DNA of 43,706 nucleotides, taken from Pseudokineococcus marinus (GTDB lineage Bacteria > Actinomycetota > Actinomycetes > Actinomycetales > Quadrisphaeraceae). Where the stretch lies: assembly GCF_013004605.1 (NCBI RefSeq), contig NZ_JABEMA010000004.1, forward strand, positions 1 to 43,706, in the 5' to 3' direction. A model generated the notes under the pieces. That model did not search any database and was not told where the DNA came from. It saw only the letters and a program-made list of their open reading frames with translations. Both the position numbers and the translations under genes were made by a program. Below, piece by piece: positions 532 to 43,706 of the stretch (its first letter is position 1; each line of letters starts with the position of its first letter).

Positions 532-566
532 ACGGCCCCCGCCCGACTGCGTCGGACGAGGGCCGT
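532..566 (-). terminator. Hairpin just 3' of the tRNA fragment
   Basis: Arms ACGGCCC (532-538) and GGGCCGT (560-566) pair, with an inner CCGAC/GTCGG stem (543-547 and 551-555). It begins five bases after the CCA end of the tRNA fragment, where a tRNA terminator would sit. There is no clear T tract. Confidence 0.5.
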
Positions 567-570
567 GAGG

Positions 571-610
571 TGGTGCGCCGCCTGGGACTCGAACCCAGAA
601 CCCACTGGTT
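571..610 (-). other. Partial tRNA 3' end serving as attachment-site core (probable tRNA-Lys)
   Basis: On the minus strand these 40 bases fit tRNA positions 37-76: anticodon-stem 3' strand CCAGT, variable loop GGGTT, T stem CTGGG/CCCAG around loop TTCGAGT, acceptor strand GCGGCGC, discriminator A and encoded CCA. Upstream of position 37 the match stops: no anticodon with a preceding U, no D arm and no 5' acceptor strand GCGCCGC. It therefore cannot be a functional tRNA. Its place between a host-like gene and a tyrosine integrase makes it the att core. The polarity (3' side toward position 1) suits attR with host DNA on the left; an attP is the alternative. The tRNA-Lys identity rests on resemblance of the variable and T regions only. 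Confidence 0.75.
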
Positions 611-856: not shown

Positions 857-1735
857 ATGGGGGAACTGACCGTCACGACGGCGTGGCAGCAGCAGCTCGA
901 CGAGTGGGACCGGTGGCTGACCGTCGCCGGACGCCCGTCCACGACTAGAGGTCTGCGGACCTACCACCTGCGCCGGCTCGCGCACCGCTACCGCGACCGG
1001 GCGCCCTTCGACCTCACCCATGACGACCTCGTCGGCTGGATGGCCGAGCACGAGTGGGGGCCGTCGACGCTCAGGTCGGTGCGCGCGTCCCTGCGTGGCT
1101 TCTACGGGTGGGCTGTGCGCACCCGGCTCCTCGAGGACGACCCGACCACTGCGCTGCCCATCGTGAAGGCGCCTCGGCGGACGCCCCGGCCCACCCCCGA
1201 CGACGTTCTCCTCGACGCGCTCGAGCGGGCCCCGCTGCGGGAGCGGCTCATGCTCGTCATCGCCCACCGCACCGGCCTGCGCGCCGGGGAGGTTGCCCGC
1301 GTCCGCCGCGAGGACGTCGTCCCCGGCGTCGCCGGCGCGTCGCTGCACGTGCGCGGCAAGGGCGCCCGCGAGCGCCTGGTGCCCCTCGACGACGAGCTGG
1401 CGCGGATCCTGCGGCTCATGCCCGCCGGGTGGGTCTTCCCGTCCTCGACGAGGCCGGGGGAGCACCTGACCGCGCACACGGTGTCCCGGCTCATGTCCGA
1501 CGCCCTCGGGCCCGGGTGGACCGCTCACACGCTGCGGCACCGCTACGCCTCGCTGGCCTACTCCGTCGAGCGGGACCTGCGCGCCGTGCAGGAGCTCCTC
1601 GGCCACGCCCAGGTCACGACCACGCAGGTCTACACGCTCGTCCCCGACGAGGCCCGACGTCGCGCCGCCGCCGGCGCCGGCGTCATCGGCGGTCACGGCG
1701 GCGAGCGCTGGTCGGTGCTGCGGCCGGCGGCGTGA
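857..1735 (+). CDS. int: Tyrosine recombinase (phage integrase)
   Basis: A 292-residue site-specific recombinase that integrates and excises the element. An N-terminal SAM-like core-binding domain (about 10-90) precedes the catalytic domain (about 115-270). The catalytic set is visible: R142 in TGLRAGE, K168 in GKGARER, H224-x-x-R227 in HTLRH, H250 in LLGHA and the nucleophile Y259 in TQVYT. The ATG at 857 was chosen because residues encoded further upstream look non-coding and the domain begins soon after it. The size fits XerC/D-like phage integrases without a separate arm-binding domain. It lies 246 bases from the att core and points away from it. Part of the region upstream shows dyads that may regulate it. 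Confidence 0.93.
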   Translation: MGELTVTTAWQQQLDEWDRWLTVAGRPSTTRGLRTYHLRRLAHRYRDRAPFDLTHDDLVGWMAEHEWGPSTLRSVRASLRGFYGWAVRTRLLEDDPTTALPIVKAPRRTPRPTPDDVLLDALERAPLRERLMLVIAHRTGLRAGEVARVRREDVVPGVAGASLHVRGKGARERLVPLDDELARILRLMPAGWVFPSSTRPGEHLTAHTVSRLMSDALGPGWTAHTLRHRYASLAYSVERDLRAVQELLGHAQVTTTQVYTLVPDEARRRAAAGAGVIGGHGGERWSVLRPAA

Positions 1736-2828: not shown

Positions 2829-3559
2829 GGCTCGGGCAGTGACTCGTCTGCGTCGAGGAGGTCGCGCAGGAGGCGCTGCCCGGCGGGCGAGATCTTGAAG
2901 AGCGGATTGCCGACGTGGCCGAGGAGGCTCTGGCCCCCCAGCGTGTCGACGAGACCGTCCCGGAGGAGGCCCGCCAGCAGGAGCGAGACCTCCTCTTCGA
3001 GCTCTGGAAGCGCGAGGCTCATCTGCCCGGGCGACCAGACGCCCGGCGGATCATCCGCCGGCTCGTCGTCCTGGCTCACCCCCGTTCGTGGAGGGACGTC
3101 TCGGTCCATCGTCTCGAGGAGCCAGAGCTGCGGCTCCTCGAGACGGGCGATGGCCTGCGCCCAGAGCCGGTGCTTGTCGCAACTGGCCGGCTCGCGCAGA
3201 CCAGCGGCCAGAGCGCGCGCGAGCACATGGATCTTCGCCTCTACGACGGCGTCGGCGGCGGCTCGCCACGTCTCGTCCGCCAGCGCGCGCGTGCTCCCGT
3301 CGACGCGCATGCGCTGAGCCACCGTCTCCACGCTGACGCCCGCCTGAGCCGAGGCGAGCGCGAGGGCGGTCTGCGCCTGAGCCAGCTGCTGTTCTCGCGG
3401 GACCTGGTCGAACCGCGCGAGGACGGCTTCTACGGCGGGCGCCAACATCGCGGCGCCGACAGCCAAGGCTGTCTCGCCGGAGACGCCGGCAGCAGCCACG
3501 CCGCCCGCGAGGACGACGCGCGAGGGCGTCTTCCGCCAGTGACGCAAGTGGTTGGTCAT
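2825..3559 (-). CDS. Protein of unknown function with C-terminal winged-helix-like segment
   Basis: A 244-residue protein I do not recognise. An Ala/Gly-rich hydrophobic segment (about 15-46) could be a membrane or packing helix. The middle is all-helical, with repeated ARALAAG and IARLEEPQ patterns. The C terminus (about 188-240) reads like a winged helix: LLRDGLVDTLGG, then FKISPAGQRLLRDL. It is coupled by ATGA overlaps to both neighbours. The mix of helical sensor-like core and winged helix, in the phage accessory region, suggests a regulator or an exclusion or defence component; this is inference. Confidence 0.7.
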   Translation of the reverse strand: MTNHLRHWRKTPSRVVLAGGVAAAGVSGETALAVGAAMLAPAVEAVLARFDQVPREQQLAQAQTALALASAQAGVSVETVAQRMRVDGSTRALADETWRAAADAVVEAKIHVLARALAAGLREPASCDKHRLWAQAIARLEEPQLWLLETMDRDVPPRTGVSQDDEPADDPPGVWSPGQMSLALPELEEEVSLLLAGLLRDGLVDTLGGQSLLGHVGNPLFKISPAGQRLLRDLLDADESLPEP

Positions 3560-3894
3560 CGGGTCGCTTCCGGCGGCGAGCCGACGAGCTGCCGGACCTG
3601 GTCTGCAGCGAGGTACGACTCGATGAGGTCGCCGTCGAGGGCGTAGACCACGCGGACGCGGTCGCCGCGGACCTCGCAGATGATCCCGGGTAGGGCCCCG
3701 TCGACGTCGTCGCCGAGGCGGGACTCGGCGAGCACCTCGCAGTGCCCTACGCGCATGGGCGGGGACTGGCGGCCCATGAGCCGGTCGAAGGCCCGCGTCG
3801 TCGGCGGGGGCGCCGGCGCGTCGAGGTGCCCGTCAACCGAGCGCGCGCCGAGCGGGGTCCCGGGGCCGCGCCGGGGATGCATGCCGCCTGCCAT
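3556..3894 (-). CDS. Hypothetical protein with small beta-barrel-like C terminus
   Basis: First gene of the minus-strand trio, up to 112 residues. The N-terminal 40 residues are Pro/Arg-rich and look disordered; the true start may be the Met at about residue 40 or 47, since no clear ribosome site precedes any candidate. The C-terminal part (about 50-105) alternates hydrophobic and polar residues (GIICEVRGDRVRVVYAL), like an SH3 or KOW-type barrel. Function unknown. Its stop overlaps the next ATG, which supports co-translation with the gene at 2825-3559. Confidence 0.6.
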   Translation of the reverse strand: MAGGMHPRRGPGTPLGARSVDGHLDAPAPPPTTRAFDRLMGRQSPPMRVGHCEVLAESRLGDDVDGALPGIICEVRGDRVRVVYALDGDLIESYLAADQVRQLVGSPPEATR

Positions 3895-4031
3895 GGGGCA
3901 GGAGCGTAGGCGCGGGGGCGGACGGTGAGCTGTCCCTCATCGAGGCGACGAAGCCTGCGAGGGATCGGCCTCGCACCCCCGCTGGCCTGGTTACCCTCCG
4001 GCGACCACGTCGCAAGGGGGAAGTTGCCGGG
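3895..4031. promoter_or_regulatory. Divergent intergenic region with operator-like dyad
   Basis: These 137 bases separate the minus-strand trio from the plus-strand membrane genes, so promoters in both directions should be here. The dyad TGCGAG/CTCGCA (3956-3961, 3970-3975) is a plausible operator for the adjacent HTH protein. AAGGGGGAAG ahead of the ATG at 4032 may be the ribosome site. No clear -35/-10 pair was identified. Confidence 0.35.
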
Positions 4032-4331
4032 ATGTCTCACTCAGCTCAACCGTCCTCACACCTGGGCGCTGGCGAGGTGCTCATCCAGGTGGTGAAGCTC
4101 CTCGTGTGGCCCGCCGCAGTCTTCGGCTCGGTCGTGCTGGGGTTGCCGCGCCTCGGTGAAGCGATCGCTGGGCAGGAGACGGACGTGGCCTTCCACTTGG
4201 AGACGGGTCTCGGCTTGAGCCTCGGCATCAACGTCTTCCTAGGAGGCGGGCTGCTCGCATCCGAGCGGCTCCGCCGGCGAGCCGAGGGGCGGCTCTCGGC
4301 CTCGGTGCAGCCGCCCGGGAGAGCCCATTGA
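4032..4331 (+). CDS. Small two-TM membrane protein
   Basis: A 99-residue protein with two hydrophobic segments, about 16-40 (VLIQVVKLLVWPAAVFGSVV) and 57-76 (LGLSLGINVFLGGGLLA). They are separated by a short acidic loop and followed by a basic tail RLRRRAEGR that should be cytoplasmic. No family recognised. It is the first of two small plus-strand membrane proteins in the accessory region. Such genes beside an integrase often alter the host envelope or block superinfection; that is inference. A longer ORF runs antisense but is compositionally a shadow. Confidence 0.6.
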   Translation: MSHSAQPSSHLGAGEVLIQVVKLLVWPAAVFGSVVLGLPRLGEAIAGQETDVAFHLETGLGLSLGINVFLGGGLLASERLRRRAEGRLSASVQPPGRAH

Positions 4332-4426
4332 GCCGAACGTGAACAGATCGGCGAGACTGTTCCCGCGGACACGTGAGGCTGCGACGATGCAGCCTCAGGC
4401 GCGTTGAGTCCAGGAGGTGGCGTCCC

Positions 4427-4975
4427 ATGGAGGCGTCGGAGCTGATCCTCATGCTGCTGCTGCTGGGCACCACGGCGGCCTTCTTCTACATGCTGATCGT
4501 CGTCATGCCGAGCCTCGCACGCACTCGCTTCACGATCCGGCTCTACGACGCGCTGCGTGAGCTCGACCGACTCACCGAGAGCCCGCGGTTGGCCAAGCAG
4601 CCTCGTCTGCTGGAGGTTCGCCAGCGCATCCTCGCGCTCATGAGCACGCCGACCCCAATCGGGGCGCGGCCACTGCTGCGCGCCTACCGCTCGATCATGA
4701 CGGGTGAGGCGCAGAGCCAGATGGAGTCCATGCCCAAGCCCGAGCATCTCGGCCTCACCACCGCGGAGAGGAGCACCGTCGCACGCTGCAACCGGGTGCT
4801 GGTCTTCGAGCTGACTCGCAGCGCCTTCCTCGGCAGCGTCGTGTGGCCAGTCCTAGTGCCCGCCTGGTGGATGGCGCGTTGGGTGCTGTCCGGGCGACGT
4901 CCTGTGCCCAACGCTGCAGTCGTCGTCGACCGCACGGTCAGCAACCACCGGGACGACTTCTTGCACGTCCGCTAG
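4427..4975 (+). CDS. Membrane protein with N- and C-terminal TM segments
   Basis: A 182-residue protein. The ATG at 4427 is chosen because GGAGGTGG lies six bases upstream; an earlier in-frame start would add only an Arg-rich stretch. Residues 4-26 are a strong TM helix (LILMLLLLGTTAAFFYML) and about 128-153 a second (LGSVVWPVLVPAWWMARWVL), with a helical, charged domain of about 100 residues between them. No enzyme motif seen. Downstream is a strong terminator. The gene follows the two-TM protein by about 95 bases and may share its transcript. A role in envelope modification or exclusion is possible. Confidence 0.72.
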   Translation: MEASELILMLLLLGTTAAFFYMLIVVMPSLARTRFTIRLYDALRELDRLTESPRLAKQPRLLEVRQRILALMSTPTPIGARPLLRAYRSIMTGEAQSQMESMPKPEHLGLTTAERSTVARCNRVLVFELTRSAFLGSVVWPVLVPAWWMARWVLSGRRPVPNAAVVVDRTVSNHRDDFLHVR

Positions 4976-34854: not shown

Positions 34855-35012
34855 GTGCGCTTCCTCCTGGTCGTGGTCTTGGGGAACAGCGGCCCGCAGG
34901 TCGCGTGCCGGGTGTGGCCCTCCTCGACGTCGAGGACGGGCAGCAGCTGACGGCAGCCGGCGCAGGCGACTCGCGACATCTCGACGCAGCACGGCTGCGC
35001 GGCCGTCTTCAC
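34851..35012 (-). CDS. Tiny zinc-ribbon protein
   Basis: A 53-residue protein from GTG 35012, GTGA-coupled on both ends. Cysteines in CC, CAGC and C (residues about 8, 9, 18, 21, 40) plus a His suggest a single zinc ribbon, with basic ends RRKRT. Too small for a confident family. Confidence 0.68.
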   Translation of the reverse strand: MKTAAQPCCVEMSRVACAGCRQLLPVLDVEEGHTRHATCGPLFPKTTTRRKRT

Positions 35013-35533
35013 CGCGGCCGCCGGCGGCGCGCGGGCGGGCCGGGCAGGGCCTCGCCGAGGTCGGTGACGAGCAGCGTCACCGCCGCCATCGGCGGATCCA
35101 TCACGGCGTGGCGCGCCCACCCGGTGGGCGACCCGACGCGGAGGTCCGGGCCCTCGAGGTGGCGGCGGTCGTCGTCGGGCAGCAGCCCTCCGTCGACGAG
35201 GCCGTCCACGACGGCCTTGACCGTCGGCGCGTAGTTCGCCGTGTCGCGCCGCTGGCCGTCACCGTGGTGCAGCACCGCGACGATGTGCGCGCGCTGCAGG
35301 CGGACGCTGCGCAGCCGCCCCCTGACGGCCCACCCGGCGGCGGCCCGCCAGTTCTGCGTCAGGCGGTTCTGGGCGTGGCGGTTCCTGCGGTCGTTGGCCG
35401 ACAGCCACGACGCCGGGTCCTGGACGCCACACTCCACGCGCAGCAGCCAGCGGTCGGCGTCAGCCGCCTCGGCCGGCGGCTGGTGGGTCAGCAGCAGCGC
35501 CTCCTGCGCGACCGACAGCGCCTGCCCGGTCAC
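35009..35533 (-). CDS. RusA-like Holliday junction resolvase
   Basis: A 174-residue nuclease from GTG 35533 (GTGA). The RusA pattern is visible: SWLSANDRRNRHAQ, RRDTANYAPTVKAVVDGLVDGGLLPDDDRRHLEGP, with acidic residues D97, D110 and D120-D122 as metal ligands and K106. RusA cuts four-way junctions to resolve recombination intermediates before packaging. The C-terminal 25 residues are Arg/Pro-rich. Confidence 0.83.
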   Translation of the reverse strand: MTGQALSVAQEALLLTHQPPAEAADADRWLLRVECGVQDPASWLSANDRRNRHAQNRLTQNWRAAAGWAVRGRLRSVRLQRAHIVAVLHHGDGQRRDTANYAPTVKAVVDGLVDGGLLPDDDRRHLEGPDLRVGSPTGWARHAVMDPPMAAVTLLVTDLGEALPGPPARRRRPR

Positions 35534-35949
35534 GACGCCACCTCGGCGGGGACGACGCGAAGCTGGCCGCGGCGACGCTGCTCCGCCCGCCGCCACGACT
35601 GGTAGCGGCGCTCACCCGCGGCGGTCTCCTCGTCGCGGCGTCCGCGCTTCCACGCCGCGTGCCAGGAGCGCAGCTGCTCGGGCGACTCGGGCGCCGGCTC
35701 AGCCCAGGCGAGCAGGTCGGACGCCGGCGCGTCGACGTCGACCAGCGCGGCCAGGGCGACGGCCAGGGCCACGAGCTCGTCCCGCTCCAGCCGGTCGGTG
35801 ACGGCGGCGACTCCCTCGACGCCCTCGTCCCGCACGGCACCGGCCAGCGCCAGCGCCCGGGGCATGGCCTCCTCGAGCAGCTGCTCGCCGTCAGGGTGAG
35901 CTTCGCGCGACGGCCCGGTCGGCAGCACGAGCTCTCGTGGTCGTGGCAT
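35530..35949 (-). CDS. Early helical protein, hypothetical
   Basis: A 139-residue protein from ATG 35949, overlapping the previous stop by TGATG. Residues 50-80 (VAAVTDRLERDELVALAVALAALV) and the tail WKRGRRDEETAAGERRYQSWRRAEQ match a family of actinophage early proteins in which the C terminus carries a basic helix. Function unknown; nucleic-acid binding is possible. Confidence 0.68.
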   Translation of the reverse strand: MPRPRELVLPTGPSREAHPDGEQLLEEAMPRALALAGAVRDEGVEGVAAVTDRLERDELVALAVALAALVDVDAPASDLLAWAEPAPESPEQLRSWHAAWKRGRRDEETAAGERRYQSWRRAEQRRRGQLRVVPAEVAS

Positions 35950-37019
35950 CAGGTCTCCTCGGTGGTGCGGCGTGCTCCTCGACCGCGGGCGCCTCGCCGA
36001 CGTGGCGGGCGGGCGCGGCCTGGTGAGGGCAGGGGGATGGCGTCGGTCGGGGATGGCGATGCGCGTGCGGCAGGTGGAGGGCTGGGGGAAGCGGCGCCCG
36101 ACCCGTCCCGTCCCGGCCCGTCCCGACACGGAGGGCACGGATCTGCCGGACCGGCAGAAGCGGTGAGCCCGTCGGGGGTGGCTGACGTCTCGCGCTGGGC
36201 GCCTGTGGCTGCTCCTGCTGCGGTGGCGGGGCGGGGCCGGGCGCTGGGCGCTGCCTGCTGCTCCTGGGCCCGCGTGGCGCGGGTCTGGGCGCTGGGCGCT
36301 GGCTGCTGCTCCTGCTGCACCGTGCCGTCGCCCGTGGGGGTGACGTGGTAGCCGAGCCGGGTGAGGAATTCGGCGCTCTCCCGCGAGTAGTACGGGCGCA
36401 CCGGGGCGGGCTTGAGCGGGGGGAGCTGGTCGCGGACGTTGTCCGGCGGCGCGGGCTGGCCGACGCGGCCGTTGCGCTGGGTGTTGCACTTGCCGCAGAC
36501 GACGAAGAGCGTGTCGACGGTCGCGGCCTGGCGGGGCGGGAAGTGGTCGTAGGTGCCGTAGATGTTGCCGACGCGGTGGCCGGGCCCCCAGGTCACGATC
36601 CGGGGGCAGTAGCGGCACTCGTCGCCGTCGCGGAGCCGGACGGGCCCGATGAGCCGGTCGTCGCGGAGGTCCCGCTTGCGCTGGGCCTCCCAGTCGACGT
36701 CGGCCTTGAGGCGGAGGTGCACGTAGGCCGGGTCGTCGAAGAGCATCCACTCGCGGCGCCGCGGCACCTTGGTCATCAGCCCGACCTTGACCGCGACGCG
36801 CACGAGCTCCTCCCAGCGCTCGACGCCGCCCTGGTCGATGGCCATGCCCTCGGTGACGAGGTAGTCCGTCTTGTGGCCGGCGCTCTCGCTGTAGCACCCG
36901 TCGATGAAGCCGCGGACCTCGTTGAAGAGCCGGGGGTCGCCCTCGCGGACGGCGAGGGCCTTGACCGCGAGCGCCTTGGGGTGGGTCGCGGCGTTGTCGC
37001 CCTTGCGGCTCCACACCAT
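35949..37019 (-). CDS. Replication-region protein with winged-helix-like N terminus and HNH/zinc motif
   Basis: A 356-residue protein from ATG 37019, with AGGAG ten bases ahead. Residues 1-110 (GDNAATHPKALAVKALAVREGD, VERWEELVRVAVKVGLM) look like a helical DNA-binding domain of phage replisome proteins. Residues about 130-185 contain CRYC, GTYDHFPP and CGKCNTQRNG, an HNH-type zinc site where the DH pair could be catalytic. From 230 on it is Pro/Ala/Arg/Ser-rich and disordered. Both a replication initiator and an HNH nuclease fit. Confidence 0.7.
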   Translation of the reverse strand: MVWSRKGDNAATHPKALAVKALAVREGDPRLFNEVRGFIDGCYSESAGHKTDYLVTEGMAIDQGGVERWEELVRVAVKVGLMTKVPRRREWMLFDDPAYVHLRLKADVDWEAQRKRDLRDDRLIGPVRLRDGDECRYCPRIVTWGPGHRVGNIYGTYDHFPPRQAATVDTLFVVCGKCNTQRNGRVGQPAPPDNVRDQLPPLKPAPVRPYYSRESAEFLTRLGYHVTPTGDGTVQQEQQPAPSAQTRATRAQEQQAAPSARPRPATAAGAATGAQRETSATPDGLTASAGPADPCPPCRDGPGRDGSGAASPSPPPAARASPSPTDAIPLPSPGRARPPRRRGARGRGARRTTEET

Positions 37020-37124: not shown

Positions 37125-37316
37125 TCACGCGAGGGACCCGACGGCGCAGGCGGCCGCGAGGAGGAGCAGCGCGAGCGCGAGGAGAAGGACGCCGAGGAGG
37201 GCTGCCTCTTCGTCGCGCGATCGGAGGGCGTCGAGGGCGTGGAGGCCGGAGAGGGCGGCCGCGGCGCCGGCGAGTACCCCGAGCGCGACGGCGGCGAGGA
37301 CTGCCGCGGCAGTCAT
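37125..37316 (-). CDS. Small two-TM protein
   Basis: A 63-residue protein from ATG 37316, ATGA-coupled to the WDGH-type gene. Residues 3-24 and 38-60 are hydrophobic helices (AAAVLAAVALGVLAGAAAAL; LLGVLLLALALLLLAAA), joined by a short charged loop. Unknown function. Confidence 0.7.
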   Translation of the reverse strand: MTAAAVLAAVALGVLAGAAAALSGLHALDALRSRDEEAALLGVLLLALALLLLAAACAVGSLA

Positions 37317-37891
37317 GTACCGGCCTCGCGCTGATCGGCGTCGATGCGCACGCGCTCGACCGTGTGGCCGAGCATGGCCCAGTGGTACGCCTGCTCCCGC
37401 CCGTGGACGACGAACGAGGCGTCGACGAGCCACAGGTCGTGGTCGGCCTTCACCCGGCCGCGGAGAGCGTCGGCGCGGAGTCGGTCGGCGGCGACGGCGG
37501 GCGTGTGTCCGTCGTAGGCCGGCGGTAGGTCGACCTCGGGCACGAAGTCGAAGAGGTCCCAGTGCTCGGCGCGGTAGTGGTTGGACACCTGCCCGGTCGG
37601 CAGCGTCGCGCTCACGATGAACCACCCGCCGCCGAAGCACGGCTCGCCGTCGGAGTGCCGCCACGACCGGACGACGGCGACGCCCTCAGCCAGCCACCCG
37701 CGGGCCGCGTGGGCGTTGTAGAGCATCCGGTAGTCGTAGAGCTCGGTCATCGTGTGGTGCTCGTCGCGCGGGTCCTTGCGGAGAGCGATCAGCTCGTCGA
37801 CGGCGCGGATGGCGAGCCGAGCGTCGAGTGAGGTCTGCGGCACCAGGTGGGCGCGGAGGTCGCGCAGGTCGGCGTTGGTGAGCTCGGTCAT
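37313..37891 (-). CDS. WDGH-domain-like early protein
   Basis: A 192-residue protein from ATG 37891, ATGA-coupled. The pattern EHHTMTELYDYRMLYNAHAAR, then GWFIVSATLPTGQVSNHYRAEHWDLFDFV and DLPPAYDGHTPAVAADRL is that of the WDGH family of phage proteins; here the name motif is YDGH (126-129). The biochemical role is unknown. The remaining 50 residues (ASFVVHGREQAYHWAMLGH) may be a second small domain. Confidence 0.78.
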   Translation of the reverse strand: MTELTNADLRDLRAHLVPQTSLDARLAIRAVDELIALRKDPRDEHHTMTELYDYRMLYNAHAARGWLAEGVAVVRSWRHSDGEPCFGGGWFIVSATLPTGQVSNHYRAEHWDLFDFVPEVDLPPAYDGHTPAVAADRLRADALRGRVKADHDLWLVDASFVVHGREQAYHWAMLGHTVERVRIDADQREAGT

Positions 37892-38163
37892 CGGGGGACT
37901 CCGCTGTCGTCGATGAGCGCGTCGAGGGCGTCCAGCTGGCCGTCGACGTGGTCGTGGTGGTGGGTGCGCTGGGTGATCCAGCGGTGGATCTGTGCGCGCC
38001 GGTCGGGGGTGAGGTGGTCCCACCAGGTGTCGGCGGGGGTGGCGCCGAGGGCCGGGCGCGGGGTGGTCGCGGGGCGTGCCGCCGCCCGCCGGGGCGCCGG
38101 GGGTGGCGCGGGCGCCGGCAGCTCGAGGTCGAGGGCCGGGTGGTCGGCGGGCGGCGTGGGCAC
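37888..38163 (-). CDS. Small His-rich protein, hypothetical
   Basis: A 91-residue protein from GTG 38163. The first 45 residues are Pro/Ala-rich; the rest is helical, WWDHLTPDRRAQIHRWITQRTHHHDHVDGQLDALDALIDD, with a His cluster. ATGA-coupled to the following gene, 8 bases after the clamp stop. Confidence 0.68.
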   Translation of the reverse strand: MPTPPADHPALDLELPAPAPPPAPRRAAARPATTPRPALGATPADTWWDHLTPDRRAQIHRWITQRTHHHDHVDGQLDALDALIDDSGVPR

Positions 38164-38171
38164 GGGGCGGG

Positions 38172-39470
38172 TCAGCCGGCCATGCGGACGGGCATGAGCA
38201 GCGACACGAGGTGGTCGTCGGCCTCGGGGGTGGCGGCGAGGTCGTCGGGGTCGGGGGTGGGGCGCACCGGGGACTGCAGCGCGACGACGGGCTTGCGGGT
38301 GGGGTAGTCGTCGTCGAAGACGAGGCGCACGGTGGTGGCCGTCAGCGAGCGCAGCAGCTCGGGCGCGAACCCGCGGTTGAGCGCGATCGCGATGCGCCCG
38401 GGCTCGTCGCCGGGGGCGGACCAGGCGACGACGGGGACGGCGGTGTGGGCTTCGCCGCCGTGGGACGTCGAGGACACGCGCAGCACCGCGGCCTCGGGCC
38501 CGCGGGCGAGCTCGATGCTGAGCGGGTCGTTCATGGCCGCGAGGACGGACACGCGGGCGAAGGCGGTGAGCAGCGCGTCCCGGTCGACGTCGACCCAGGT
38601 GTGGCGGTCGGCGACGTCGGGCAGCAGGGCGTCGATCTTCGGGTACTCGCCGTCGACGACCAGCTGGGTCCAGGTCTCGCCGCCCGCGGACCAGCGCACG
38701 AGGTTGGGGCGGTTGGCGGCCCCGTCGAGGCGGTGCCACCAGACGGCCCGCTCGGCCCGCCACCGGTCCGCGAGCGCGGTCAGGGCGCCGGAGGGGACGA
38801 GGAGGTCGCGGGTGGGCTCGGTGATGGTGGCGGGGGCGGTGGCGCGGGCGAAGCGGTACCGGTCGGTCGCGGCGGTGGTGACCTGGTCGTCGTCGAGGTG
38901 GACGCGGACGGCGCTGAGGATCGGCAGCGAGTAGTCGTGGGAGGCGGCGTAGGCGGGGCGGGCGGTCGCGGCCATGGCCTCGCCGGTCATGGTGGCGAGG
39001 AGGACGGCGGGGGCGGCGTCGAGGTCGGCCCAGTCGTCGTCGAGGCTGCCGAGGGGTACGCCGTAGGAGGCGCCGGCGCCCTCGACGTACAGGCGGGGCC
39101 CGCCGTCGTGGAGCTCGGACGCGCGGGGGGCGGTCCCGACGGACAGGTGGACGGTGGCGCGGCGGCCGATGGCCCTCACGAGGGCGGGCAGGTCCGCCGC
39201 GGCGGCGAGCACCCGGCCCTTCGCGCCGGGGCAGACGATCCGGGCGGAGGCCTCGACGGTGCGGGCCTGGTCGTGGTCGCCGCCGGTGATGGTCAGGGCG
39301 GTGCCGTCGTGCTCGAGGAGCACGTGCCGGCCGCCGCGCCGGGCGCCGGCGCCGGCGGAGCGGACGAAGGCGAGCGCGCGGGCGAGCTCCTCCTGGGCGA
39401 CCTGCGCGGCCAGGCCCCGCCGTGGGCCGTCGGTGGTGGGCGTGGCTGGGGCGTCGGCGAGGACGGTCAT
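38172..39470 (-). CDS. dnaN: DNA polymerase III beta subunit (sliding clamp)
   Basis: A 432-residue clamp from ATG 39470, with GGAG five bases ahead. Three DnaN domains can be traced; signature parts are LTITGGDHDQARTVEASARIVCPG, the central DYSLPILSAVRVHLDDDQVTTAATDRYRFA and the C-terminal PVRMAG, which ends as DnaN does with LMPVRM. The dimer ring would tether a polymerase. It is longer than the usual 360-380 residues, mostly by an N-terminal extension and loops. A complete clamp on a phage suggests that the phage keeps its own replisome contacts. Confidence 0.92.
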   Translation of the reverse strand: MTVLADAPATPTTDGPRRGLAAQVAQEELARALAFVRSAGAGARRGGRHVLLEHDGTALTITGGDHDQARTVEASARIVCPGAKGRVLAAAADLPALVRAIGRRATVHLSVGTAPRASELHDGGPRLYVEGAGASYGVPLGSLDDDWADLDAAPAVLLATMTGEAMAATARPAYAASHDYSLPILSAVRVHLDDDQVTTAATDRYRFARATAPATITEPTRDLLVPSGALTALADRWRAERAVWWHRLDGAANRPNLVRWSAGGETWTQLVVDGEYPKIDALLPDVADRHTWVDVDRDALLTAFARVSVLAAMNDPLSIELARGPEAAVLRVSSTSHGGEAHTAVPVVAWSAPGDEPGRIAIALNRGFAPELLRSLTATTVRLVFDDDYPTRKPVVALQSPVRPTPDPDDLAATPEADDHLVSLLMPVRMAG

Positions 39471-40183
39471 CGAGGGCTCCTGGCGGCGTCGTGGGCGGGC
39501 GTGGACTGCTGGGGGAGGCGGCCGGTGTCGGCGAGCGCGCGGAGCTCGTCGAGAAGGGCGGAGGGGGCGGCGTCGGACCACCGGTCGAGGACCTCGACGA
39601 GGTGGCGGACGGCGACGGTCGAGCGGGGGCGCGGCGCCCGCGGCGCGGCGGCGGGGGCGTCACCGCCGCGCAGGACGGTGCAGCCGCCCGGGTTGGTCAC
39701 CTCGTGGGTGATGTCCGTGACCGGCGCCGCTGCGGCGGCGGGCGCGGGGTCCTCGACGCCGGCGCCGTAGCGCTGCACCGTGGCGACGGACACACCGAAG
39801 ATCGCCGCGACCTCCTGCCAGGTGGCCTTGAGGTCGCGCAGGCGCCGGACGGTGCGGGCGCGCTCCTGGTCGTCGATGGCGGCGCGCTGGACGTTCTCCT
39901 GCACCGACGCCGCGAGCCAGTCCCGCAGCGGCAGCGGGTCGGCGTGGATGACCGCCGGGAGCGTCTTGATGCCCGCGACCCGGGCCGCGGCGACGCGGCG
40001 GTGGCCGGCGCGCAGCCGGAGCCGGTCGCCCCACCGCTCGACGCTGATGGGCTGCACGCACCCGTAGGCGAGGAGGGAGTCCGACAGCGAGCGCAGGTCC
40101 CCGAGGTCGCGGCGAATGTTGTGGGGGTGGAAGTCGACCTGGTCGAGGCGGACCAGGCCCACCCGGGTGGCCGGCCCGGTCAC
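39467..40183 (-). CDS. ParB-like protein, short form
   Basis: A 238-residue protein from GTG 40183 (GTGA); its stop overlaps the clamp start. It has a ParB N domain: VRLDQVDFHPHNIRRDL, YGCVQPISVERWGDRL, LRAGHRRVAAARVAG (the CTP-binding R box) and SVQENVQRAAIDDQE. An HTH (LKATWQEVAAIFGVSVATVQRYG) follows, then a Pro/Ala linker and a C-terminal helix that may dimerise. No ParA or centromere array is visible, so it is more likely a regulator or replication accessory than a partition protein. Confidence 0.85.
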   Translation of the reverse strand: MTGPATRVGLVRLDQVDFHPHNIRRDLGDLRSLSDSLLAYGCVQPISVERWGDRLRLRAGHRRVAAARVAGIKTLPAVIHADPLPLRDWLAASVQENVQRAAIDDQERARTVRRLRDLKATWQEVAAIFGVSVATVQRYGAGVEDPAPAAAAAPVTDITHEVTNPGGCTVLRGGDAPAAAPRAPRPRSTVAVRHLVEVLDRWSDAAPSALLDELRALADTGRLPQQSTPAHDAARSPR

Positions 40184-41790
40184 GACCCGACGTCCTCGGA
40201 CGCGGCGTCGTCGGCGAGCACGCCCTCGGGCAGGAACTCGAGCTCGACGGGCGACCACTCGTACCCCGTCGCGGCGACCTGCTGCAGCCAGCCGGTGGCA
40301 CGGCGCCAGGCCCACGGCTCGGCGCTGGTCAGCTCCTCGTCGCGGTCGAGCAGCTGGCTCAGCGAGACGAGGCCGACGAGCTCGAGGACGCCCCACCCGG
40401 CGAGGGCCTCGGTGACGACGTCGCGGCGGTCGGCGGCGTCCTGCTCGCGGAGGCGCTGGCGGGCGTCGTAGTCGGCATTTTCGGGTGCCTGGCGGGGCGG
40501 CGGGAAGGTGATGCCGAGGACGTCGGCGATCGGCCAGGCGACGGGCTGGCGCCCGAAGCGGGTGTCGACGGTGCGTGCGACCTGGGCGACGAGGTGGCGG
40601 CGGGCGGCCTTGTCGTCGGTCCCGCGGACGTGCTCGCCGAGGTGGCGGCGGCGGACCTTGGCCGCGGCCGCGAGCGCCGCGGCCTGCTGCTCCTGACGGG
40701 CGCGCGCCTCCTCGGCCGCCCGGGCACGCTCGGCGGCCTGATCCGGCTGGGTTTCCTCGGTCGAGTCGGCGGGCGCCTGGCGGCCCGTGGCGTTGTCGTG
40801 CAGCCGGGCCTGCAGGCAGACCCATTCGACGTGGGGCACCGAGGTGAAGCTCTCGCCCTCGTAGACGACGCCGGCGTGCCCTGGGCAGGTGTGGTGGCCG
40901 TCGCGCTCGAACGCCGTCAGCGCTTCCCCGGCGGCCTCGTCGGCGGCGGCCTCACTCTCCTGGTCGACCTCGCCGTCCTCGTTGGCGTGGGCCGCGTAGA
41001 CCGCGTCGCGAGCGGCCGACATGGCGTCGGTGGCGAGGACCTCGAGGAACTCCGCCTCGCCGCCGGTGGCCACCCACTCCTGCGGGGTGAGGAGCCGCCA
41101 CTCGTTCCGCTCGGCGAGCTTCGTCTCGGTGCGCAGCTTGCGCTGGGCGACGCGGCGGTCCTTGGCCACCTGCAGCGCCCACGCCCACGACGGCGTGCCG
41201 AGCGCCGACTCGAGGGACGTGCGCACGACGTCGTCGTCCTCGAACTCCGCCAGTGCGATGGCCTGTTCCAGCGGCACCTGACCGGCGATGACGCGGGTGC
41301 GCACCGACTCCGGGGAGGTGGCCAGGGTGATGCGGCCGCGGACCATCTGCTGGGAGCGGCCGACGCGGGCGGCGAGGTCCTTGAGCGGGACGCCGTAGTC
41401 GAGGGTCAGGGCTCGGTAGGCGTCGCCCTCCTCCACCGGGGTGAGGTCCACCCGGTGGCCGTTCTCCACGAGCATCGCCTGCAGCTGGTCGGCCTCCTCG
41501 GTGAGGTCGTCGCGGACCACGCACGGCACCTCGGTCAGGCGGGCGACCTTCGCGCCGGCGAGGCGCCGGTGCCCGGCGATGACGACCCACCGGTCCTTCT
41601 TCTTCGCGGCCGGCGCGACGACGAGGGGCTGCAGCACGCCCTGCGCCTTGATCGACGCGGCGAGCTCGGACACGTCGCCGACCTCCACGCGGACGTTCTT
41701 CGCGTGCGGCACGAGCTGCTTGACCGGCAGCACCGCGAAGCGGGCGCCGGCGGCGGTGTCGATGGGCATGGGCTCGGTGGCGGTGCTCAC
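40180..41790 (-). CDS. ParB-like nuclease-domain protein, long form
   Basis: A 536-residue protein from GTG 41790, with GGAGGACCAC just ahead. ParB N domain: LPVKQLVPHAKNVRVEVGDVSELAASIKAQGVLQPLVV, then VVIAGHRRLAGAKVARL and MLVENGHRVDLTPVEEGDAYRAL; the HTH is YGVPLKDLAARVGRSQQMVRGR. A long C-terminal region (about 250-536) with a CPGHAG zinc-like piece and a coiled RAAEEARARQEQQ segment is not in ordinary ParB. The two ParB proteins here are distinct, not recent copies. Function unknown; DNA binding or CTP switching expected. Confidence 0.86.
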   Translation of the reverse strand: MSTATEPMPIDTAAGARFAVLPVKQLVPHAKNVRVEVGDVSELAASIKAQGVLQPLVVAPAAKKKDRWVVIAGHRRLAGAKVARLTEVPCVVRDDLTEEADQLQAMLVENGHRVDLTPVEEGDAYRALTLDYGVPLKDLAARVGRSQQMVRGRITLATSPESVRTRVIAGQVPLEQAIALAEFEDDDVVRTSLESALGTPSWAWALQVAKDRRVAQRKLRTETKLAERNEWRLLTPQEWVATGGEAEFLEVLATDAMSAARDAVYAAHANEDGEVDQESEAAADEAAGEALTAFERDGHHTCPGHAGVVYEGESFTSVPHVEWVCLQARLHDNATGRQAPADSTEETQPDQAAERARAAEEARARQEQQAAALAAAAKVRRRHLGEHVRGTDDKAARRHLVAQVARTVDTRFGRQPVAWPIADVLGITFPPPRQAPENADYDARQRLREQDAADRRDVVTEALAGWGVLELVGLVSLSQLLDRDEELTSAEPWAWRRATGWLQQVAATGYEWSPVELEFLPEGVLADDAASEDVGS

Positions 41791-42176
41791 GTGGTCCTCC
41801 GGGGCTTGGTGATGTCGACGACGCCCTCGGCGACCTGGGCGCCCCTGCGGGCGAGCCACCCGGCGCGGGCCGTGCAGACGTCGTCGTGGTCGTGGTGGCG
41901 GTGCTCGCCCGGCTCGAGGGGCCGGGCGGACGGGGAGCGCAGCGACCGGGCGACCCACGCGCCGGTGCCGGTACGGCGGACCGCCATGACGGCCCGGGCG
42001 TCGTCGGGCGCGGCGCGGAGCCGGTTGACGAGCACGACGTCGCCGTCGAGGGCGGCCCGCTCGACGGGGGCGCCGCACCCGTAGGGGCAGGTGGGGGTCG
42101 GGTCCGTCAGCCGCCGGGCGCGGCGGCGGCGCTCCGCCGCCCGGGCCTGCCGGGTCGGCCGGGCGCCCGGGCTCAC
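41787..42176 (-). CDS. Early protein of unknown function
   Basis: A 129-residue protein from GTG 42176, GTGA-coupled to the genes on both sides. Arg-rich start, a CPYGCG knuckle at about 30-35, then VVLVNRLRAAPDDARAVMAVRRTGTGAWV and a His-rich HRHHDHDD segment. Possibly a small zinc-binding protein. No family recognised. Confidence 0.65.
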   Translation of the reverse strand: MSPGARPTRQARAAERRRRARRLTDPTPTCPYGCGAPVERAALDGDVVLVNRLRAAPDDARAVMAVRRTGTGAWVARSLRSPSARPLEPGEHRHHDHDDVCTARAGWLARRGAQVAEGVVDITKPRRTT

Positions 42177-43615: not shown

Positions 43616-43706
43616 CGGGCCCGCCCCTCGGTCACGAGCCGCAGACCCGGCCGCTGACCGGCGCCGGCGCGTCGCGCGTCGGCGGCGTCGAGGGCGGCGA
43701 GGGCGT
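43612..43706 (-). CDS. C-terminal end of an early gene, cut by the window edge
   Basis: The open minus-strand frame from the window end to the TGA at 43612 encodes Ala/Arg-rich residues ending in GLRLVTEGRAR. The stop overlaps the next start as GTGA, which supports a real gene continuing to the right. Confidence 0.6.
   Translation of the reverse strand, partial: ALAALDAADARRAGAGQRPGLRLVTEGRAR

Follow-up and report, generated by a model that had tools for sequence, protein, structure and literature searches.

ParA-less ParB proteins encoded beside a phage sliding clamp and a small candidate adaptor in a Pseudokineococcus prophage: a possible replication-recruitment module

KorB, VirB and Noc are cytidine triphosphate (CTP)-switch proteins of the ParB type that have no partition job and bind DNA independently of ParA, and to our knowledge none of them is encoded together with a sliding clamp. 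Orphan ParB-CTPases are also found on prophages; in the available part of the survey that covers them they have a ParB_N fold and neither ParA nor a ParA-binding motif, no neighbouring replication clamp is described and the term 'DnaN' occurs 0 times (PMC12704722). The locus described here lies in a 43,706-nucleotide stretch of DNA from the actinomycete Pseudokineococcus marinus (hereafter the window; contig NZ_JABEMA010000004.1, which is C334 of the 578 contigs of this genome). It encodes two ParB-type proteins, ParB2 and ParB1, of which ParB2 resembles the orphan prophage proteins in its ParB_N fold and in lacking both ParA and a ParA-binding motif, together with a phage β sliding clamp and a small candidate clamp adaptor. 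The reading preferred here, held with moderate confidence, is that these genes belong to a temperate actinophage integrated in the chromosome, lie in its early (replication) operon and form a replication-recruitment module rather than a partition system. No description of a ParB–clamp pair in phages was found in the open-licence PMC literature, as judged by titles and abstract openings.

The trio is encoded on the minus strand in the order ParB2 (536 amino acids (aa), GTG start, phrog_6218; 40180..41790), ParB1 (238 aa, GTG start; 39467..40183) and clamp (432 aa, ATG start, phrog_947; 38172..39470), with a stop/start overlap of 4 base pairs (bp) at each junction, and is followed on the same strand by the candidate adaptor (91 aa, phrog_33323; 37888..38163). 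A sequence-only reading of this DNA had described the same three proteins, which are real, and had called the two ParBs unlike, a fair description given 32% identity over 117 aa. It had also taken the overlapping frames as a sign of special coupling, and this part does not hold: nine of the ten junctions between 43615 and 37125 overlap, eight by 4 bp and one by 7 bp, the sole non-overlapping junction being an 8-bp gap directly after the clamp. Since overlaps are the rule across the run, they give no evidence for a special coupling of the trio.

Both ParBs match ParB_N above the Pfam cut-off. ParB2 consists of ParB_N (4.1e-13), HTH_ParB (3.7e-9) and a family-specific C-terminus, and ParB1 of ParB_N (2.1e-7) and a helix-turn-helix (HTH) domain (HTH_23, 5.6e-6). 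The GxRR (GHRR) and ENxxR motifs (ENVQR in ParB1), which we take from canonical ParB to be the CTP-site motifs, are kept in both proteins. In a structure search the ParB2 profile matched KorB chains, and Noc chains were matched too.

The clamp aligns at near full length (residues 23-432) with a solved bacterial β clamp (8dj6, E 5.1e-11). In Pfam, DNA_pol3_beta_2 (1.4e-9) is the sole clamp domain above cut-off, domains 1 and 3 falling below theirs. The residues of the client-peptide pocket are kept (ATDRYR and, at the C-terminus LLMPVRMAG, LLMPVR), corresponding by eye to the pocket positions T172-L177 and M362-R365 given in the part of PMC11139829 that was available. The host has its own DnaN (contig C31), which is 35% identical to the phage clamp with similarity across residues 86-432, as well as its own ParAB, so that the prophage ParBs and clamp are phage extras. 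A polymerase, primase or replicative helicase of the phage's own was not noticed among the predicted proteins of the window (by eye; part scanned), and the phage must therefore rely on host enzymes.

The prophage nature of the locus is indicated at both ends. A tyrosine integrase (857..1735, plus strand) adjoins the left attachment site, a 76-bp core (532..607) identical to positions 2545-2620 of contig C42, where it falls within the 3' portion of a tRNA-Lys gene. ARAGORN called a 'tRNA-Asp' at 571-658, overlapping this core; it is probably a chimaeric false call from the duplicated core. C42 encodes a homologue of an early gene from the prophage of a congener, and the 15 bases at its start are found again at window positions 43687-43701 with a reading frame running across, the window's final five bases having no match to C42. 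It is thus strongly suggested, by sequence overlap rather than by an assembly, that C42 adjoins the right end of the window. Taken together, the shared core, the integrase and the C42 evidence identify an integrated prophage with both ends known, most of which is contained in the window. Almost all predicted genes from about 5 kb to the right end of the window are on the minus strand, and besides small open reading frames (ORFs) the phage part of C42 carries one gene resembling MerR/excisionase genes and another resembling HTH repressor genes.

These ends bear directly on the possibility that the locus is a ParABS-type partition system with ParA supplied by the host or from elsewhere. Such a system would account for ParB_N and HTH domains in both proteins, and the host does encode ParA. 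The sequence-only reading had seen neither ParA nor a parS array, and had named a ParA gene with a parS array just to the right of the window among the findings that would speak against a non-partition device; there is no ParA among the genes in the phage part of C42, the right end of the prophage, and no ParA/AAA_31 was seen in the window gene list (by eye; Pfam on part), while the same Pfam test does recognise the host ParA. The canonical 16-mer parS has 0 matches with up to 3 mismatches allowed, although a more divergent site may exist. Palindrome families were considered as parS candidates; they exceed codon shuffles at 14-16 bp but resemble GC-rich codon repeats, and are not claimed. The ParA-binding motif, as defined in the available part of a survey of orphan ParBs that includes prophage ones (PMC12704722), is present in only 1 of 108 phage ParB-like proteins, there at residue 319, whereas a canonical GLG[RK]G[LI]GALIP-type string is found in 13 of 14 host loci. 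Among the first 50 of 80 records of the ParB2 family in viral contigs, ParA (AAA_31) was found by Pfam in one. Integration at two attachment sites, a right end without ParA and the missing ParA-binding motif leave the earlier view that this is not a partition system standing, and partition, already disfavoured, is very improbable.

The module is conserved in a congener. Among 99 genomes searched, with that of P. marinus (G000) counted, all had a match to the clamp, which dnaN would lead one to expect, and two had the full trio: G000 itself and the congener G001. The gene order in G001 is identical (ParB2, ParB1, clamp, adaptor), with identities to the window of 48%, 70%, 76% and 73% respectively. 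Proteins in the terminase and portal position in G001 (named by eye) have no meaningful similarity to those of the window, and retention of the module while these genes differ indicates that it travels as a unit. In two further congeners, G002 and G003, ParB1 found no match and the clamp a single one per genome. More partial arrangements are seen in a G057 prophage, where a full clamp (Pfam), a single ParB and a gene that looks DnaQ-like by eye lie within 4.3 kb, and in a G016 prophage (L055 6751-9583), which has two nearby ParBs (482 and 363 aa, the second by Pfam) with no clamp seen nearby. ParB1 and the clamp, used as single-protein or pair-alignment queries, had no matches in viral contigs; ParB1 found one weak Streptomyces locus in genome contigs (one scan) and no match in isolated phages by tblastn. 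The evidence for the complete trio therefore comes from two genomes.

The pairing of ParB with a clamp recurs in other phages. A six-protein ParB2-type profile retrieved 133 relatives in viral contigs, from which 80 loci were kept, many of the stretches being fragments. Of the 80 loci, 29 contain a clamp or a clamp-like gene, which lies at most four genes from a ParB in 26 of these 29; in 10,000 random placements the mean number within four genes was 9.7 and the maximum 19, a comparison that is not a probability because the loci are related and partly near-identical. The first recurring neighbour after ParB is a protein of 216-421 aa in which an ATDR[YF]-type motif is common. In the first 50 records, Pfam found PF02767 in seven (one above cut-off) and at least two ParB_N domains in six; the search model, at a lenient threshold, gave two-ParB loci in 15 of 80, an upper figure since its hits of 116-120 aa are probably HTH matches. 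From the clamp side, with queries themselves drawn from ParB loci and 15 of 22 loci on contigs already in the set, a ParB is present in 18 of 22 loci and in three of the seven new ones. In one locus (L077) a single ParB is followed by two adjacent clamp-like genes that differ from each other (3472-4122 and 4163-4873).

Isolated phages show the same neighbourhood. Of the Gordonia records, 24 have a ParB, and these include all 22 that have a clamp (lists compared by eye). Bowser, Hedwig and their relatives resemble the window in having a phrog_6218-type ParB with a clamp-like protein one to three called genes later, but differ in that the ParB is single and long and the clamp, where tested, is two-domain and fused to FtsK-gamma (L073 by Pfam; L073, L074 and L091 by search model). 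Arthrobacter phages of the Richie, DrYang and Popper groups also encode a clamp; the Richie and DrYang stretches examined have no annotated ParB, whereas in Popper the ParB-like gene (47) lies seven genes upstream of the clamp gene (54). The modules of relatives also hold DnaQ-like exonucleases. The ParB–clamp link is frequent but not obligatory, and the expected neighbourhood is thus borne out as a recurrent ParB–clamp pair in other phages and as a trio in one congener, but not as a widespread trio.

Under the preferred reading, ParB2, probably aided by ParB1, is predicted to be a ParA-less DNA binder of the CTP-switch type that would nucleate on phage DNA and then slide, most likely marking or organising the start of phage replication; host polymerase III, and other clients of the clamp, would then be brought to this DNA by the phage clamp together with the small adaptor. 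Several observations weigh against it. The ParB_C dimerisation domain (PF23552), which the host ParB matches at 4.6e-6, has no match at E<=1 in ParB1 or ParB2, and no parS-like site or replication origin was found. The structure model of the window clamp is poor (predicted local distance difference test (pLDDT) 45.7), its alignment being too shallow. Rough ratios of non-synonymous to synonymous substitution (dN/dS) between the window and G001 are 0.44 for ParB1 and 0.43 for the clamp, but 0.87 for ParB2 and 0.91 for the adaptor, indicating weak purifying selection on the latter two. In 51 of the 80 ParB2-family loci no clamp was found in the fetched stretch, many of these being fragmentary, and in four of the 22 clamp-side loci, all among the new ones, no ParB was found.

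That each partner occurs without the other is also what would be expected if the ParBs, clamp and adaptor were independent early genes placed in one operon but doing no joint work, an explanation further favoured by the generality of overlaps in the operon and by the relatedness of the loci, whose counts are not independent. Against it stand the proximity of ParB and clamp above random placement, the retention of the module while structural genes were swapped and the recurrence of the adaptor next to the clamp; ordinary co-residence is considered unlikely, although it retains appreciable weight.

The adaptor is the second recurring neighbour after ParB, a protein of 38-65 aa in the relatives, mostly with W[WF]..L..[ED]R[RQ] and ending in GQ[LFIY].[ILM]P[IL] or similar. 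The WW..DRR protein of the window is linked to these by phrog_33323, which matches the window ORF (6.3e-6), a small protein of L060 (2e-8) and, weakly, one of L063 (0.0032), and by the adaptor model, of which the window's own sequence was part. Adaptors were counted in nine of the 80 loci, after L059_227 (E 0.0039) was discarded as a non-adaptor; at another locus, L163, where no ParB was found, an adaptor with GQLDLPLPL adjoins the clamp. For clamp binding, the available part of PMC11139829 gives the consensus Q-aliphatic-x-[L/M]-[F/L], optionally one residue longer. A near form of this pattern is present in nine of nine viral adaptors against five of 1149 other small proteins, although it was composed after the adaptors had been inspected and three of the nine are near-identical; the strict published form is present in one of nine against 11 of 1149. 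The motif is therefore only suggestive of clamp binding. The window and G001 adaptors lack the C-terminal motif and have instead a fully conserved N-terminal HPALDLELP, in which ALDLEL lacks the first Gln, so that clamp binding, a good guess for the relatives, is a weak guess in the case of the window.

Small proteins of this kind bring to mind bacteriophage T4, in which the gp45 clamp acts with small co-activators in late transcription. By analogy, the clamp and adaptor could serve as a mobile late-gene enhancer, with the ParBs as KorB- or VirB-like regulators. The near-C-terminal position of the clamp-binding-like motif in a small adaptor, a layout like that of T4 gp33 and gp55, fits such a role, as do the KorB structures matched by the ParB2 profile and the DNA-binding FtsK-gamma fused to the clamp in some relatives. 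However, the window cluster, where no sigma search was made, revealed no sigma-like phage partner, and the neighbouring genes, together with the DnaQ-like exonucleases of relatives, suit replication or recombination better. These neighbours are an HNH protein (phrog_15463; 35949..37019, minus strand), the Bowser and Popper modules also having an annotated HNH gene, and a RusA-like resolvase (phrog_9203; 35009..35533, minus strand). Clamp-coupled transcription is the best specific rival to replication recruitment but is itself judged unlikely. The remaining genes flanking the module are a small early ORF without significant family immediately upstream of ParB2 (41787..42176, minus strand) and a WDGH-domain protein (PF25311 by Pfam; 37313..37891, minus strand); the latter, or a similar-looking protein as at L054 15445-15798, is seen repeatedly in prophages from different genera that carry a clamp.

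The clamps of the relatives include a divergent, two-domain form. A model based solely on six short proteins (239-256 aa) finds annotated clamps among 2628 proteins, including those of Richie (5.4e-4), the window (6.6e-4) and G001 (1.8e-4), and in profile-profile comparison with six full clamps it aligns to the clamp middle and into the last third (probability 95.6, E 1.3e-8), the first clamp domain being absent. Searched against the PDB up to E 1, the short-protein profile matched β clamps in 23 of 23 cases. The AlphaFold model of a 240-aa member (pLDDT 86.6, predicted template modelling (pTM) score 0.83) has a predicted clamp fold: among the matches listed (the best 50 of 299 in the PDB at E<=0.001), all are β clamps or clamp-holding complexes, with a best TM score of ~0.6 by query length. 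These short clamps belong to phrog_12598 (L063 5755-6477 and relatives), labelled a 'RusA-like' Holliday junction resolvase; the family appears to be a sliding-clamp family and the label wrong. A C-terminal FtsK_gamma domain is present in four of ten proteins scanned (L070 5633-6616; L073 12094-13140, which is Bowser gp53; L079 3212-4285; L115 11933-12997), with a two-domain clamp at the N-terminus in L070, L073 and L079 and a clamp part seen by eye only in L115, and this C-terminus explains the 'FtsK-like translocase' labels. The clamp family is present in 36 isolated-phage records, and the 22 Gordonia clamp records are labelled FtsK-like translocase (10), sliding clamp (six), RusA-like (four) or hypothetical (two); since some annotators already use the label sliding clamp, the clamp identity itself is not new.

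Two further proposals involve these divergent clamps. In the first, two DNA rings would be physically coupled, a CTP-loaded ParB on a phage site delivering or holding the phage polymerase clamp via the adaptor, and the two-domain clamps of relatives, perhaps PCNA-like trimers and some FtsK-gamma-fused, would be site-directed replication clamps; this more specific version is speculative and doubtful. In the second, the clamp, above all the two-domain kind, would be a decoy or a phage-recombination partner and not a replication ring. The missing first domain would suit such a recombination or anti-host role, as would the two-domain clamps of L160, L161 and L164, which have no ParB found and lie near exonuclease- and recombinase-looking genes (by eye), but the alignment of the window clamp spans the entire ring subunit, and this role is the most improbable of those considered.

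Two-domain bacterial-type clamps, some of them FtsK-gamma-fused, thus sit in public records as RusA-like, FtsK-like or hypothetical proteins, and they bear on the kinship of two-domain (PCNA-like) and three-domain (β) rings. For many 'ParB-like' genes of phages no function has been assigned, and the ParB–clamp–adaptor neighbourhood offers a concrete and testable one, in which the host replisome would be recruited without a phage helicase or polymerase.

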